From Candidatus Sumerlaeota bacterium (lineage in GTDB: Bacteria > CG03 > SLGR01), in the NCBI GenBank assembly GCA_007136585.1, contig SLGR01000236.1, forward strand, positions 1-6,231: a stretch of 6,231 nt of DNA. The letters run 5' to 3'. The notes below the pieces were generated by a model. It ran no database searches and had not been told where the DNA came from. It was given only the letters and a program-made list of their open reading frames with translations. The position numbers and the translations under genes are program-made. Positions 1 through 6,231 of the stretch are shown in pieces (position 1 is the first letter of the stretch; the number at the start of each line of letters is the position of its first letter).

Positions 1-1041
1 ATTTTCCTTGGCGTAGAATGTCTTTGAGAGCACCCCGAGTATCTGGTGAGGGGATTTGCAGGAGGAGAAATGTTCTATCATATCCGGGTAAAACTTCTCC
101 ATGAACTCCACCCAGGCGGGGCAGCAGGAAGTAATAAGGGGGAGCGAGCCGGGGTCCTTGCTGAGTTTTTCACTGAACTCCGTAGCCTCTTCCACTATTG
201 TAACATCCGCTCCGAAACTTGTATCAAATACAGCTTTAAAACCTATTCTCCTCAGAAGTGTATAAAGTTTTCCCGTCAGGTTTTCACCCGGGCTGAAACC
301 GAAAGCCTCACCCACAGTAACCCTGACAGCCGGGGCGATCTGGACTACGCAGTGTTTCTCCTCATCCATCAGGGCCTCCCAGGCTTTACGGGTCTCGTCG
401 TGCTCAAATATGGCCCCGGTCGGGCAGTGCGCGCTGCACTGGCCGCACCTTATACAGGGGGATTCCCTGAGCTCTATATCTCCAGCGGCGGAGATCCTGG
501 TATAAAACCCCCGCTCAAGAAATGAAAGAGCCCATACGTCCTGCATCTGCTGACAGGCCTCTATACACCTGCCGCAGAGGATACACTTCTGCGGGACAAG
601 CTCTATGTTCTTTGTTGATTTATCCTCCGGCAGGTCTCTCAGGTGTTTTTCAAATTTATCCTCCCGTATACCGAAATCAGCGGCAAGTTTCTGAAGCTCG
701 CATACGTTGTTCCTGCCGCACTTAAGACAGTCATTGGGGTGATTTGAAAGTATCAGTTCCAGTACCCCTCTCCTTATCTCAATAATCTCCGGGTCCTGGG
801 TTATTACCGACATACCCTCCTCTATGGGTGTGCAGCAGGCTCTCAGCATACGGGCATCCCCTTCTATCTTTACCAGGCATATGCCGCAGGCGGCCGAAGG
901 AGGAAGGTCACGGTGCTTGCAGAGCGTAGGTATGGTGACCTGGACTTCTCTCGCGGCCTCAAGGATCGTAGTTCCCTCAGGAACGCTGACCGGAAGCCCG
1001 TTTATCCTGGCGCTTATTTTTTTTATTTTATTCTCTTTCAT
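1..1041 (-). CDS. hndD: [FeFe] hydrogenase catalytic subunit, group A bifurcating type (partial; 3' end outside window)
   Basis: Catalytic subunit that interconverts protons and H2 at the H-cluster, taking electrons from an iron-sulfur chain fed by HndABC. The first 347 residues are visible. A plant-type [2Fe-2S] domain has Cys41, Cys52, Cys55 and Cys69. A His-ligated [4Fe-4S] site follows (His101, Cys105, Cys108, Cys114). Two ferredoxin-type [4Fe-4S] sites come next (Cys153/156/159/163 and Cys196/199/202/206). The H-cluster domain then shows its first motif, TSCCPAW, at 304-310; by family knowledge Cys306 is the proton relay and Cys307 a cluster ligand. SCKSPHQ follows at 327-333. The later MPCxxKxxE and ExMxCxxGCxxGG motifs lie beyond base 1, so activity cannot be confirmed. 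The ATG overlaps the hndC stop as ATGA, implying translational coupling. The equivalent Thermotoga-type name is hydA. Confidence 0.96.
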   Translation of the reverse strand, partial: MKENKIKKISARINGLPVSVPEGTTILEAAREVQVTIPTLCKHRDLPPSAACGICLVKIEGDARMLRACCTPIEEGMSVITQDPEIIEIRRGVLELILSNHPNDCLKCGRNNVCELQKLAADFGIREDKFEKHLRDLPEDKSTKNIELVPQKCILCGRCIEACQQMQDVWALSFLERGFYTRISAAGDIELRESPCIRCGQCSAHCPTGAIFEHDETRKAWEALMDEEKHCVVQIAPAVRVTVGEAFGFSPGENLTGKLYTLLRRIGFKAVFDTSFGADVTIVEEATEFSEKLSKDPGSLPLITSCCPAWVEFMEKFYPDMIEHFSSCKSPHQILGVLSKTFYAKEN

Positions 1042-2783
1042 CGCACTTTTACGGCATCAAAACGGCATACCCGGAAACATTCTCCGCATTTAATACACTC
1101 ATCACTGGATATCGTAAACCCTTCTTCCCTGCTTCCCTTTACGGCGTTTACAGGGCATTTTTTGAAACATATTGAACAGCGGGTGCATTTATCAGGGTCT
1201 ATCCTGTAGCTGAGAAGTCCGGAGCATTTTCCGGACCTGCATTTTTTATCATTTATATGCTCAAGGTATTCTTCGGTAAAATACTTCAGGGTGGAGAAGA
1301 CCGGGTTGGGAGCCGTCTGGCCCAGGCCGCAGAGCGAGGCCTTGGCCATTATATTGGATATCTCATTTATCTTTTCAATATGTTCCGGGGTACCGCTGCC
1401 CTTGGCTATATGATTGAGTATCATCAGTAGCTGGTACCCTCCTATCCTGCATGGCGGGCATTTCCCGCAGGACTCGTCAACGCAGAACCTCAGATAGAAC
1501 CGGGCGACATCAATCATACAGTCGGAGGAATCCATTACTATCATCCCGCCGGAGCCCATTATTGAACCAAGGTCCTGCAGATGCTCATAATCTACCGGCG
1601 TATCCAGGTGATCCGCCGGGATAACCCCGCCTGAGGGGCCGCCGGTCTGCACCGCCTTTAACTCCATTCCGGTCTCCAGCCCTCCGCCTATCTCATAGAC
1701 TATCTCACGGAGAGTTGTCCCCATGGGCACCTCAATGAGTCCGGAACGCCTTACTTTTCCGGTGAGGGCAAAGACCTTTGTGCCGGCTGACTTCTCGGTT
1801 CCTATTTCCGAGAACCACTTCCCACCTCTTTCCATGATGGGAGGGATATTCGCCAGGGTCTCCACGTTATTTATTATAGTAGGTTCATCCCAGAGACCCC
1901 GTAAGGAAGGATACGGAGGCCTGGGACGGGGAGTGCCTCTTTTTCCCTCAATGGATGCCGTAAGGGCCGTCTCCTCCCCGCATACAAAAGCCCCGGCTCC
2001 CAGGCGTATACCCAGGTGGAAACTGAACCCGCTTCCCAAAATATCATCTCCCAGGAGCCCGTATTCATAAGCCTGGTTTATCGCTTTACGAACCCGCTCA
2101 ATAGCTATCGGGTACTCCGCGCGAATGTATAAGTAGCCATTTTGCGCCCCGGAAGCATACCCCCCCGTTATCATACCCTCTATTACGGAATGAGGGTCGC
2201 CTTCAAGAATACTCCTGTCCATATAGGCCCCCGGATCTCCTTCATCGGCGTTACATATGATAAATTTTTCTTTACCCTGAGCCTGGCGGGTAAAGTTCCA
2301 CTTCATCCACGTGGGGAACCCCCCTCCCCCTCGCCCCCGGAGACCGCTTACCTTCAGTTCCTCAATCACCTCCTCCGGGCTCATATCTTTCAGTATCCTG
2401 TTAAGGGCCCCGTACCCGCCCGCGGCGATATATTCTTCTATGCACTCGGGGTCTATCTTTCCGCAGTTCCTGAGAACCACCCTCAGGGATTTGGGTTTTT
2501 CAGTGTAGCGGAGCTCTTCAATAACCTCCCCGCTAATTATGGTTCGCTCAATTATCTCGTCTATCCGGGATTCCGGAACATCCCGGTACATAACCCCGCC
2601 GGGCCATATCCTTAGGAATATACCCTTATCGTATATCCCCGAAAACTCTGTTCTGACCAGTTGGACGCTATCCTGAAGGTTTCTCTCCCTTACCCGGCTC
2701 AGGAAAGCGGCGTAGAAGTCCTCTGTCCGGGACGGACCTTTTACTCCTGTATCTGCTATAAAAACTGCTTTTATCCCACTCAT
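1038..2783 (-). CDS. hndC: NuoF-like NADH/FMN subunit of the hydrogenase, with a cysteine-free N-terminal thioredoxin-like domain
   Basis: Flavin subunit of 581 residues that exchanges hydride with NAD(P)H and passes electrons to the iron-sulfur chain. The NuoF core shows the glycine-rich GRGGGGF nucleotide/FMN segment (150-156), the NADEGDPGA motif (178-186) and GAGAFVCGEETAL (262-274). The cluster site is SCGKCPPCR (Cys439, 442, 445) plus Cys485. A Cys515/Cys520 pair follows, and then two C-terminal ferredoxin-type [4Fe-4S] sites (Cys533/536/539/543 and Cys563/566/569/573), an arrangement typical of bifurcating HydB/HndC. Residues 1-100 align with HndB in fold-defining positions, for example IIERTIISGE versus IIKEHIIGGR, but hold no cysteine; the first is Cys107. 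This subunit therefore probably lacks the N-terminal [2Fe-2S] cluster. The start lies 5 bases after the hndB stop and follows a weak GAG-like ribosome site; the stop overlaps hndD. Confidence 0.96.
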   Translation of the reverse strand: MSGIKAVFIADTGVKGPSRTEDFYAAFLSRVRERNLQDSVQLVRTEFSGIYDKGIFLRIWPGGVMYRDVPESRIDEIIERTIISGEVIEELRYTEKPKSLRVVLRNCGKIDPECIEEYIAAGGYGALNRILKDMSPEEVIEELKVSGLRGRGGGGFPTWMKWNFTRQAQGKEKFIICNADEGDPGAYMDRSILEGDPHSVIEGMITGGYASGAQNGYLYIRAEYPIAIERVRKAINQAYEYGLLGDDILGSGFSFHLGIRLGAGAFVCGEETALTASIEGKRGTPRPRPPYPSLRGLWDEPTIINNVETLANIPPIMERGGKWFSEIGTEKSAGTKVFALTGKVRRSGLIEVPMGTTLREIVYEIGGGLETGMELKAVQTGGPSGGVIPADHLDTPVDYEHLQDLGSIMGSGGMIVMDSSDCMIDVARFYLRFCVDESCGKCPPCRIGGYQLLMILNHIAKGSGTPEHIEKINEISNIMAKASLCGLGQTAPNPVFSTLKYFTEEYLEHINDKKCRSGKCSGLLSYRIDPDKCTRCSICFKKCPVNAVKGSREEGFTISSDECIKCGECFRVCRFDAVKVR

Positions 2784-2788
2784 TGCTC

Positions 2789-3142
2789 TTATTTTAAGGG
2801 TTCAGAAGTTCTCAAGTGATATACTCCGGAATCAAGGATGCGGCCCCCGATTATGTGCTCCTTTATTATGCGCAGAGCCATTTCTTCATTCACGTTACCG
2901 TAAAGCACACGGGGCATCCCTTCAACCTCTACTTCAACCAGGGGTTCGGCGTAGCAGGCTCCCAGGCATCCGCATTTCCTCAGGTTAATATCCAGCCTGT
3001 TCTTTTTCAGATGCTCCCCGAGGAAACCGTATATCCGGTCTGCCCCCGCCGCTATACCGCAGGTGCTCATACCTACCCGCACCCATCCGGAGGATAGTTT
3101 CTCCTGTCTCTCTTTTATCTTCTCAAAGTCAGGTTTTTTCAT
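2789..3142 (-). CDS. hndB: HndB-type thioredoxin-like [2Fe-2S] ferredoxin subunit
   Basis: Small electron-transfer subunit of 117 residues in the tetrameric Hnd hydrogenase. Residues about 20-100 form a thioredoxin-like [2Fe-2S] domain with STCGIAAGA (Cys28), KCGCLGAC (Cys57, 59, 63), AEPLVEV and YGNV, all typical of the family. Residues 1-19 are a charged helix-like lead-in. The usual family pattern, from memory, has Cys28 plus a CxxxC pair; Cys57 is an additional cysteine that could serve as a fourth ligand. The ATG lies inside the end of hndA (14-base overlap), with a GGGA/GGG purine patch upstream. The stop is 5 bases from the hndC start. It is related to the cysteine-free N-terminus of HndC and may carry the cluster that HndC has lost. 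That division of labour is inference. Confidence 0.92.
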   Translation of the reverse strand: MKKPDFEKIKERQEKLSSGWVRVGMSTCGIAAGADRIYGFLGEHLKKNRLDINLRKCGCLGACYAEPLVEVEVEGMPRVLYGNVNEEMALRIIKEHIIGGRILDSGVYHLRTSEPLK

Positions 3143-3608
3143 TTACCCGGTCCCTGCTTTCAGTGTACTCGGAAAGAATATCCGCAACCTGCGCCTTATC
3201 CACCTTTCCGTAAACCTTGCCGTTAACGGTCACAGCCGGGGCTATGCCGCAGCACCCCAGGCACCTTACTGTTACCAGGCTGAAATTCCCGTCCTGGGTC
3301 GTCTCCCCTTCATTGATGTTCAGTATCTCCCGGAACTCCTTTAGAACCTCGCCCGCCCCTTTAAGGTAACAGGCCGTTCCCATACAGATGGAGATGGTGT
3401 GTTTTCCGGGCTTATTAAGGTTAAAGTAATTATAGAAAGTAAGCACCTCGTAAATCCTGGCAAGAGGAACATCCAGGATTTCGGAAAGTTTTAAGGATAT
3501 ATCCCTCGGAACATACCCGTACCTGTTCTGAATCTCATGGAATATCATTATGAGGTTCCCGCGGCGACCTTCCCATTTTTCAATTAAATTTTTCAGTTCT
3601 TTTTCCAT
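3129..3608 (-). CDS. hndA: NuoE-like [2Fe-2S] subunit of the hydrogenase
   Basis: A 159-residue NuoE/HydC-family protein that holds a thioredoxin-like [2Fe-2S] cluster next to the flavin subunit. An N-terminal helical bundle contains HEIQNRYGYVP (24-34) and the VYEVLTFY-like segment YEVLTFYNYF (53-62). The cluster ligands are CMGTAC (Cys75, Cys80) and RCLGCCG (Cys116, Cys120); Cys119 is extra. Length is normal for the family. An in-frame TAG lies only 12 bases upstream of the chosen ATG, so no longer start is possible with a standard codon. The next Met (21) would remove a conserved helix. No Shine-Dalgarno sequence precedes the ATG, and the predicted promoter puts the transcript start within a few bases of it, so it may be translated from a nearly leaderless mRNA. 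It begins the tightly packed hndABCD block. Confidence 0.95.
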   Translation of the reverse strand: MEKELKNLIEKWEGRRGNLIMIFHEIQNRYGYVPRDISLKLSEILDVPLARIYEVLTFYNYFNLNKPGKHTISICMGTACYLKGAGEVLKEFREILNINEGETTQDGNFSLVTVRCLGCCGIAPAVTVNGKVYGKVDKAQVADILSEYTESRDRVNEKT

Positions 3609-3662: not shown

Positions 3663-4496
3663 TTACGTATTTTCAGAAGACCGCATACGGTCATCATTAA
3701 GACTGCCCTGCCTGTACCCCTCTAGGTCCGCCGTTACGTGCCTGTACCCCAGCTCCCGCAATTTTCTTACGATATTATCCCTGTTCTCATTCCGGGTGAG
3801 TATTTCCAGATCGCGCGCGCTCACCTCTATCCTTGCACTCTCCCCGTGATGCCGGACCCTGACCTGCCATACTCCCAGACCTCTCAGAAAATCCTCTGCC
3901 CGGCCTATCATCTTTAACTTCTCCGGGGTTATTTTCTCTCCGCAGGGGACCCTGGAGGCAAGGCAGGCCCCGGGTGGTTCCTCCCAGAGAGATATATCAA
4001 GGCTCCGGAGCGCGGCGCGGATATCGTCCTTGCCGAGCCGGGCCTCTATCAGGGGGTGCCTTATCCCCAGCTCTTTTGCGGCTCTCATCCCCGGTCTGAA
4101 ATCATTCAGATCGTCGCAATTGGAGCCGTCTGCCACGAACCTTATACCCTCTCTGCGCGCGATCTCCAGGAGCTTTCCGAAAAGCGACCTCTTGCACAGG
4201 TAACACCGGTCAGCGGGGTTATCCGTAAAGAGGGGGTCTTTAAGTTCCGCGGTATCTATGACTATATGCCTTACCCCTGTTTTCTTCGCAAACTTGCGGG
4301 CTCTCTCAAGCTCGGCCCACGGAAATATTTCCGAGCGGGCCGTAACGGCGACAACCTTCTCTCCCAGGGCATCCTTTGCCGCCCGGAGAAGCAGGGTACT
4401 GTCAACTCCTCCGGAGTAGGCTATAAGCAGACTCTCCATCTCTCTCAATATGCCTCTCAGCCTCTCCAAAGCAGGGCTTATTATATCATCCTGCAT
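3663..4496 (-). CDS. larE: LarE-family ATP-dependent sulfur transferase (three-cysteine, probable [4Fe-4S] type)
   Basis: A 277-residue PP-loop enzyme. In characterised members it adenylates the carboxylates of a pyridinium nucleotide and inserts sulfur while making the nickel-pincer nucleotide cofactor. The PP-loop SGGVDST is at 28-34, ARSEIFP at 53-59, RCYLCKR at 97-103, GSNCDD at 124-129 and PGACLASRVPCGE at 175-187. Cys178 matches the sacrificial cysteine of the Lactobacillus enzyme. Together with Cys98 and Cys101 it gives the three-cysteine set that family knowledge links to a [4Fe-4S] cluster in the Thermotoga enzyme. Cys127 and Cys185 are extra. The ATG has an AGGA site (4506-4509) at a 9-base spacing. 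No larB, larC or larA is visible here. It lies 54 bases upstream of hndA on the same strand. A different thiolation role cannot be excluded. Confidence 0.93.
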   Translation of the reverse strand: MQDDIISPALERLRGILREMESLLIAYSGGVDSTLLLRAAKDALGEKVVAVTARSEIFPWAELERARKFAKKTGVRHIVIDTAELKDPLFTDNPADRCYLCKRSLFGKLLEIARREGIRFVADGSNCDDLNDFRPGMRAAKELGIRHPLIEARLGKDDIRAALRSLDISLWEEPPGACLASRVPCGEKITPEKLKMIGRAEDFLRGLGVWQVRVRHHGESARIEVSARDLEILTRNENRDNIVRKLRELGYRHVTADLEGYRQGSLNDDRMRSSENT

Positions 4497-4982: not shown

Positions 4983-6231
4983 ATGACTAACAGAAAAGAA
5001 TACGTTAAATATTCATTGACTGCGGCGGTTCTGATACTGCTCTTTTCTTCTTCCGGCTTCTCTGAAACCGGGCGTAACTGGGCCGAGTGGCGGGGCCCGA
5101 ACCATAACGGTATTTCCGATGAGACCGGATGGGACCCTGAGGCCCTGAAAAGACCGTTACGGGTTAACTGGAATATAAACGTTGGCGAAGGGTACTCCAG
5201 CGTTTCCGTAAAAGGAGATTACCTTTATACAATGGGGTATGACCAGTCATCCGGAGAAAATATTCTTTACTGCCTGAAAGTTGACACCGCCGAAGAGGTC
5301 TGGAGATACACCTACGAAGCTCCAAGAGGAAGGTACGCGGGACCCAAATGCACCCCCGTGGCACATAACGGGTTTGTCTACACTTTCGGGCAGGGCGGAT
5401 GGTTTAAATGTAACGACGCCCGGACAGGAGAACTTATATGGAAACGCCATGCGGTTGAAGAACTCGGCGCAAGGAGACCGCACTGGCAGTTCCCTTCTTC
5501 CGTAAGAGTACACGGGCGCAAGGCTATTGTGAACGCGGCCGAGTCAGGCGTGGCTCTGGACAGGGAGACAGGTGAGGTTATATGGGTAAGCCCGCCTGGA
5601 ACCGGCAACTATGCGACCCCCGTGCTTTATGAGGATAACGGGAGAACCCTGGCAGTTATTGTGGGGCGCGACCGGCTTTACAGCGTTGATGCGCGCACGG
5701 GGGAGACCGTATGGGTCTATCCCTGGAGTACTCCCAGGTCCATAACGGCGGCGGACCCTTTTATTTATAACGGGTTGCTTTATATCTCAAGCGGGTATCG
5801 TCACGGGGGAGCTCTCCTTGATATCAGCGGATCCGAACCGGAACTTTTATGGCAGAACAGAGATCTCTGTTCTCATTTCACATCTCCGATCATAATGGAC
5901 GGACACATCTACGGGGTCAACGGTAACGCGGGAACTTCAGCCAACCTTAAATGCCTGGATATTGAAGACGGTTCGGTAGTATGGAGTAAAGAGCTCGGGT
6001 TCGGGAACATGATGGCCGCCGCAGGCTACATTATTCTGGTAACCGAAAACGGGTCGCTATACATAATAGAGGCTGACCCGTTGGGGTACAAAGAGGTTTC
6101 AAGCGCCCATAACCTGCTTGACAGGCTCTGCTGGACCGCCCCTGTCCTTGTGCGCTCTACGGTATACCTGAGAAACGACAGGGGAGATATTATCAGCATA
6201 GATCTCTCCCGGGAAAATAATTCAGAAAACA
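4983..6231 (+). CDS. Exported PQQ-like beta-propeller repeat protein (partial; 3' end outside window)
   Basis: The first 416 residues are visible and open to the window end. Residues 1-27 form a Sec signal peptide: a basic start (RKEYVK), a hydrophobic core (LTAAVLILLF) and a likely cut after SSSGFS or the next residue. The mature protein opens with WAEWRGPNHNGIS (33-45), a hallmark of the PQQ-like/BamB-like propellers abundant in planctomycete-type bacteria. Blades follow with 'D-x-x-T-G-E-x-x-W'-like ends at Trp107, Trp153, Trp201, Trp244, Trp290 and Trp334, spaced 43-48 residues apart. These repeats mark the fold; PQQ binding or dehydrogenase activity is not shown, and many members are non-enzymatic scaffolds. 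The start is supported by AAGGAGAG (4969-4976) at good spacing. It is transcribed away from larE, and no functional link to the hydrogenase is visible. Confidence 0.9.
   Translation, partial: MTNRKEYVKYSLTAAVLILLFSSSGFSETGRNWAEWRGPNHNGISDETGWDPEALKRPLRVNWNINVGEGYSSVSVKGDYLYTMGYDQSSGENILYCLKVDTAEEVWRYTYEAPRGRYAGPKCTPVAHNGFVYTFGQGGWFKCNDARTGELIWKRHAVEELGARRPHWQFPSSVRVHGRKAIVNAAESGVALDRETGEVIWVSPPGTGNYATPVLYEDNGRTLAVIVGRDRLYSVDARTGETVWVYPWSTPRSITAADPFIYNGLLYISSGYRHGGALLDISGSEPELLWQNRDLCSHFTSPIIMDGHIYGVNGNAGTSANLKCLDIEDGSVVWSKELGFGNMMAAAGYIILVTENGSLYIIEADPLGYKEVSSAHNLLDRLCWTAPVLVRSTVYLRNDRGDIISIDLSRENNSEN

Follow-up and report, generated by a model that had tools for sequence, protein, structure and literature searches.

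A flavin subunit of a putative electron-bifurcating [FeFe]-hydrogenase whose N-terminal thioredoxin-like domain has probably been kept without its [2Fe-2S] cluster

The window, that is, the whole 6,231-nt stretch of DNA analysed here, is an entire contig of a Candidatus Sumerlaeota draft genome in 257 contigs. Its minus strand carries the following genes and features, given by window position.

1–1041, minus strand: hndD (hydA), [FeFe]-hydrogenase catalytic subunit; the start is normal and the contig end cuts the gene after 347 aa
1038–2783, minus strand: hndC (hydB, bfuB), NuoF-like flavin subunit of 581 aa, with Pfam domains Complex1_51K, SLBB, NADH_4Fe-4S and Fer4
1047–1205, minus strand: C-terminal 2x[4Fe-4S] ferredoxin domain of HndC (B3, B4), residues 527–579, intact by Fer4 matches and alignment A4
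1224–1520, minus strand: HndC residues 422–520, with the B1 and B2/zinc ligands intact in the 30-sequence alignment A4 (roles from PMC9304861)
2484–2783, minus strand: N-terminal thioredoxin-like domain (NTD) of HndC, residues 1–100, cysteine-free, from sequence matches and an AlphaFold2 model
2631–2645, minus strand: former second ligand loop of the NTD, residues 47–51, with Phe47 and Tyr51 on cysteine columns of the NTD alignment
2739–2756, minus strand: former first ligand loop of the NTD, residues 10–15, with Ala10 and Lys15 on cysteine columns of the NTD alignment
2789–3142, minus strand: hndB, separate thioredoxin-like ferredoxin-type subunit of 117 aa, with Cys28, Cys57, Cys59 and Cys63
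3129–3608, minus strand: hndA (hydC), NuoE-like subunit, with C1 ligands Cys75, Cys80, Cys116 and Cys120

As read from the translations, a PP-loop ATPase resembling LarE is encoded upstream of hndA (3663–4496, minus strand), and the opposite strand encodes a PQQ-type beta-propeller protein (4983–6230, plus strand). The same genome holds two further [FeFe]-hydrogenases and a HydF-like gene, whose score of 284 bits falls short of the curated cut-off of 326. One of its clusters (L185, contig C149) combines a HydF-like gene, two [FeFe]-hydrogenase genes and two flavin subunits, one of 1053 aa with an HndB-type NTD and one without an NTD. Another locus (L184:3566-5339, contig C240) encodes a paralogous NuoE-NuoF-NuoG-like module, the NuoF of which retains one of the four NTD ligand cysteines (VLVCAGTSG, TGDRGLF).

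HndC has a NuoF-type FMN/NADH core (Pfam PF01512, E = 8e-43) and the PDB entries that it matches best are B subunits of bifurcating enzymes. It matches HydB of the T. maritima, T. kivui and A. woodii HydABC enzymes and of NiFe-HydABCSL over the full length, and shares with HydB (BfuB) the order of thioredoxin-like NTD, FMN/NADH core, B1/B2 helical bundle, zinc hinge and 2x[4Fe-4S] domain. Across the 30 homologues of alignment A4, the B1 ligands (Cys439, Cys442, Cys445 and Cys485), the B2/zinc ligands (Cys422, His509, Cys515 and Cys520) and all eight cysteines of B3 and B4 are invariant; the B1 and B2 ligand roles, including that of the bifurcation-specific histidine corresponding to His509, have been described (PMC9304861). 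Ala186 and Met188, also invariant in A4, match bifurcation-specific residues of the same study when mapped by eye. HndA carries the four C1 ligands, and the N-terminal 347 aa of HndD match [FeFe]-hydrogenase models. Of the features that characterize BfuB/HydB, the FMN/NADH core, the B1–B4 ligands and the HydC (C1) and HydA partners are present and the B5 ligands are not; because all four ligand positions of the NTD are substituted, we class HndC as a B5-less variant and not as a canonical five-cluster member. Judged by sequence, HndC probably serves a tetrameric electron-bifurcating [FeFe]-hydrogenase (HndABCD/HydABCD) as its BfuB-type flavin subunit, an assignment that forms part of the joint explanation favoured below, and the enzyme of its clade would be expected to bifurcate electrons.

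A preliminary description of this DNA had held that residues 1–100 of HndC form a thioredoxin-like ferredoxin domain devoid of cysteine. The translation agrees on the second point: residues 1–106 are cysteine-free (window 2478–2783 on the minus strand encodes residues 1–102), and the first cysteine is Cys107. A Pfam search of HndC returned no domain within residues 1–102. The NTD does match NCBIfam 2Fe-2S ferredoxin models (E = 3e-9 to 7e-9, under their curated cut-offs), the solved N-terminal domains of HydB (9mqx, E = 9e-5; 7t2r, 2.5e-4; 7p5h, 3.5e-4) and, among PDB sequences, the thioredoxin-like 2Fe-2S ferredoxins of Azotobacter and Aquifex (overall E of about 1e-4 to 5e-3). An AlphaFold2 model of HndC built from a 30-sequence alignment (mean pLDDT 82) gives the NTD a beta-alpha-beta-beta-beta-alpha order with pLDDT mostly 71–95 (strand 5–11, helix 16–33, strands 40–44, 55–60 and 64–66, helix 71–83). 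Because the NCBIfam and PDB matches and the model agree, we regard the claim of a thioredoxin-like ferredoxin domain as sound. Foldseek aligned HndC over its full length at 10 Å rmsd, presumably because the domain placement differs, and the VIA structure comparison covered mainly residues 94–522 and barely sampled residues 1–93.

The same description had aligned the NTD with the neighbouring HndB. Direct pairwise proof of this homology fails, with a non-significant BLASTP E of 1.1, and profile comparison by hhalign recovers the relationship over residues 20–97 (probability 82%, E = 1e-5). When about 105 related N-terminal domains are aligned to define the ligand columns, the cysteines of HydB-type NTDs (VLVCGGTGCESS and KTGCFGFC) align with Ala10, Lys15, Phe47 and Tyr51 of HndC. 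Phe47 and Tyr51 had been named correctly as ligand equivalents, whereas Thr12 and Thr45, named beside them, are neighbours, the true columns being Ala10 and Lys15. In HydB the NTD is of a cluster-binding type, and the A. mobile structure places the B5 [2Fe-2S] in it (PMC8880783), whereas HndC has none of the four ligands of such a site and its NTD would lack the cluster.

The absence of cysteine from about 100 residues is unremarkable alone, as we estimate that it would arise by chance roughly one time in three at 1% Cys. We do not attribute the loss to chance because all four ligands are lost, with conserved replacements, in 23 of the 27 members of the clade surrounding HndC. Eighty relatives and further genomes gave 168 non-redundant flavin-subunit entries, a partial sample centred on the relatives of the window and drawn mostly from metagenome-assembled genomes (the phylum of genome G252 counts only 5 genomes). 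In a maximum-likelihood tree built by a quick search from the flavin core, with the NTD excluded (LG+G4, with SH-aLRT as sole support and long branches flagged at L012 and L161), HndC falls in this 27-member clade (SH-aLRT 96), in which the other four members have a fused HndB-type domain where the NTD would be. The members include Omnitrophota, Auribacterota, Elulimicrobiota, Fibrobacterota (Chitinispirillaceae), Verrucomicrobiota and Melainabacteria; the nearest tree row outside the clade, L065 from a Nitrospiraceae genome, is likewise Cys-less. Most simply, these sequences would be explained by a single loss of B5 in the ancestor of the multi-phylum clade.

Within a 12-sequence sample of the Cys-less clade, Asp11-Thr12, Tyr51, Gly54 and Tyr66 are invariant, and position 47 is Asp in most clade members and Phe in HndC of the window. 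For unsaturated sequence pairs, dN/dS is about 0.10–0.18 in the NTD and about 0.03–0.08 in the core; between the window and L037, identity is 45% in the NTD and 77% in the core. By these ratios the NTD is under purifying selection, less tight than that on the core. The contention that the domain has been kept without [2Fe-2S] ligands, unlike in Thermotoga-type HydB, is upheld by the loss of all four ligands together with the low dN/dS and the invariant residues.

The explanation we favour, and hold to be the probable one, is that the NTD lacks the B5 [2Fe-2S] cluster and is kept as a cluster-free structural domain of the bifurcating hydrogenase. B5 would have been lost from HndC in the clade ancestor and the domain then retained cluster-free. 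As in NiFe-HydABCSL, the NTD would pack against the C1-bearing NuoE-like subunit, on its mobile C-terminal domain, and may help to hold or release that domain during bifurcation, possibly as a gate; bifurcation would proceed through FMN, C1, B2, B3 and B4, with B5 omitted. The structural role is suggested by analogy with NiFe-HydABCSL, where the HydC C-terminal domain owes its stability to the NTD, which turns flexible on FMN/NADH binding, and where B5, 11 Å from C1, is termed a dead end for electron transfer (PMC8880783). We favour a structural, possibly gating role because the clade is without B5 ligands but has kept all else. Both this role and B5-free bifurcation gain support from D. fructosovorans Hnd, which is reported to bifurcate although its HndC is without the N-terminal cluster (PMC7483475). 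Against them stand a bifurcation model built on a C1–B5 unit, in which B5 is stated to be conserved in all Bfu (PMC9304861), and the report that B1–B5 appear necessary (PMC11406978). The structural need for the NTD is not absolute, because the domain changes more quickly than the core and three hndB-bearing relatives (L151, L178 and L180) do without it.

An alternative, which we consider unlikely but the strongest of those weighed, is that HndB does the job of B5 in trans, with its own [2Fe-2S] cluster near C1 and docked on the degenerate NTD. HndB of the window has Cys28, Cys57, Cys59 and Cys63, with Gly24 at the classical first cysteine and Cys57 at an unusual place, and among solved structures it is closest to the NTDs of the B subunits StnB and Nfn-ABC B (E = 1e-17 to 2e-14, with a fold match too). 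Among 120 systems with a scorable NTD and HndB, both sets of cysteines are kept in 72, only those of HndB are lost in 21, only those of the NTD in 26 and both in one (L161). The losses thus rarely coincide and are anti-associated when kinship is ignored (Fisher one-sided p = 0.018), but a kinship-aware test of the same losses, with only 3 usable pairs, shows nothing. Because of L161 and because only 3 pairs are independent, we keep reciprocal loss as a description only; the rule that HndB and NTD never lose their cysteines together is broken by L161, which also tells against HndB acting in place of B5. L161 belongs to genome G183, and its HndB and its HndC NTD have each lost their cysteines.

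Cys57 of HndB occurs in 16 of the 26 Cys-bearing partners of a Cys-less NTD and in none of the 72 such partners of a four-cysteine NTD. It recurs in the fused HndB-type domains of L093, L100, L101 and L112, which replace the degenerate NTD at at least three spots in the clade (L100; L101; L093 with L112). In L011, from a genome of the same order, HndB is fused ahead of a degenerate NTD. These arrangements favour HndB standing in for B5, and the fusions fit a shared location of HndB and NTD in the putative complex, where, in the preliminary description, the NTD might be a structural dock for HndB. The correlation of Cys57 with NTD loss may, however, be ancestry, because Cys57 tracks one clade and the other 10 of the 26 partners have three cysteines only, as does HndB in most systems. 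Two Spirochaete pairs (L080/L092 and L114/L116) likewise have an HndB-type domain where the NTD would be, which also favours a shared position. In several Spirochaete HndBs (L052, L057, L058, L059, L062, L067, L094 and others), the three conserved cysteines have jointly become Ser, Ser and Asp, and the partner HndCs, where the NTD is complete, retain all four NTD cysteines.

Published accounts also weigh against a redox role of HndB. HndB of S. fructosivorans is said to be probably without a redox centre (PMC10084766) and HydD of A. woodii is predicted to be cofactor-free (PMC6288185); StnB has glycine in place of two of the four ligand cysteines of its HndB-type domain (PMC7483475), and its structure paper, in which this domain was docked without side-chain refinement, lists no cluster there (PMC10482914). 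For Nfn-ABC structures, we found no open paper stating the cluster status of the HndB-type domain. The proposal in the preliminary description that HndB supplies the electron relay is thus a possibility that we rate as unlikely. Its further suggestion that cysteine loss is tied to a separate hndB does not hold: hndB stands beside a four-cysteine NTD in 93 of the 120 systems and beside a Cys-less NTD in 27, so that, being commoner beside four-cysteine NTDs, it does not explain the loss, even though it is adjacent or fused in nearly every Cys-less clade member. The refuting case named in that description, hndB-bearing homologues in which the cysteines are routinely retained, is in part borne out by these counts. 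A more specific version, in which B5 moved in trans across the whole multi-phylum clade, the NTD serving as a cluster-free dock with a rebuilt pocket and HndB, its four-cysteine site completed by Cys57 as a relocated ligand, as an electron store, appears somewhat less likely again.

That the NTD is a decaying vestige, its cluster gone, its fold drifting and its function none beyond not unfolding, we judge improbable. Its faster evolution relative to the core, its absence from L151, L178 and L180 and its replacement in L093, L100, L101 and L112 would be in keeping with decay, but it persists in 23 members of the 27-member clade, which spans several phyla, with new invariant residues at the former cluster site and with the dN/dS given above. 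That the loss stems from faulty assembly, a frameshift or a wrongly placed start, as might be suspected because the window is one whole contig of a 257-contig draft, is refuted by homologues and can be given almost no weight, as the frame is open, HndC matches homologues in independent assemblies from residue 4–7 onwards and a similar Cys-less domain occurs in more than 20 other genomes.

The favoured reading of a cluster-free structural NTD has precedents. A cluster-less thioredoxin-like NTD is already known in FdsB (PMC7171172), and a cysteine-poor one in StnB; HndC of Desulfovibrio is a partial precedent. In Rhodobacter capsulatus FdsB, the N-terminal 100 residues form a ferredoxin domain that is thioredoxin-like, as is the HndC NTD, and is unable to bind a cluster (PMC7171172), but FdsB has one [4Fe-4S] cluster and FMN only, whereas in HndC the remaining bifurcating cluster set is intact. 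StnB and Nfn-ABC B (8oh5, 9bov, 9n5u) likewise join a BfuB core to a thioredoxin-like NTD that has fewer ligands; there the NTD is itself HndB-type and keeps three cysteines, whereas the window encodes HndB separately and has another, Cys-less domain as the NTD. HndABCD of Solidesulfovibrio (Desulfovibrio) fructosivorans is likewise laid out as four genes, one of them for a separate HndB, and its HndC is reported to be without the N-terminal [2Fe-2S] (PMC7483475), which may mean loss of the whole domain or just of its cysteines.

A second, separate NuoF-like group, mostly of 530–560 aa, was seen alongside (L200, L201, L206, L208, L209, L211, L213, L214, L217, L218 and L221). Its NTD is without ligand cysteines (LISVDANSIIAG, VVETGTLGIIGKG), its core match ends before the B3/B4 domain and its members often occur in genomes that also hold a full bifurcating system; they are perhaps non-bifurcating partners. 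L012 and L161 resemble this group.

Within the literature searched, what is new is a motif-conserved, cluster-less NTD on an otherwise complete bifurcating subunit, found in several phyla beside a separate HndB. The role of B5 is disputed, one model building on a C1–B5 unit (PMC9304861) and the first structure paper calling B5 a dead end (PMC8880783). At the sequence level, a clade that has the ligands of every cluster except B5 contradicts the published claim of B5 conservation throughout the Bfu enzymes (PMC9304861), and the multi-phylum loss of these ligands suggests that B5 may not be needed for electron splitting. If a member of the clade bifurcates, B5 in the NTD would be dispensable, and HndB would be a candidate substitute for test.
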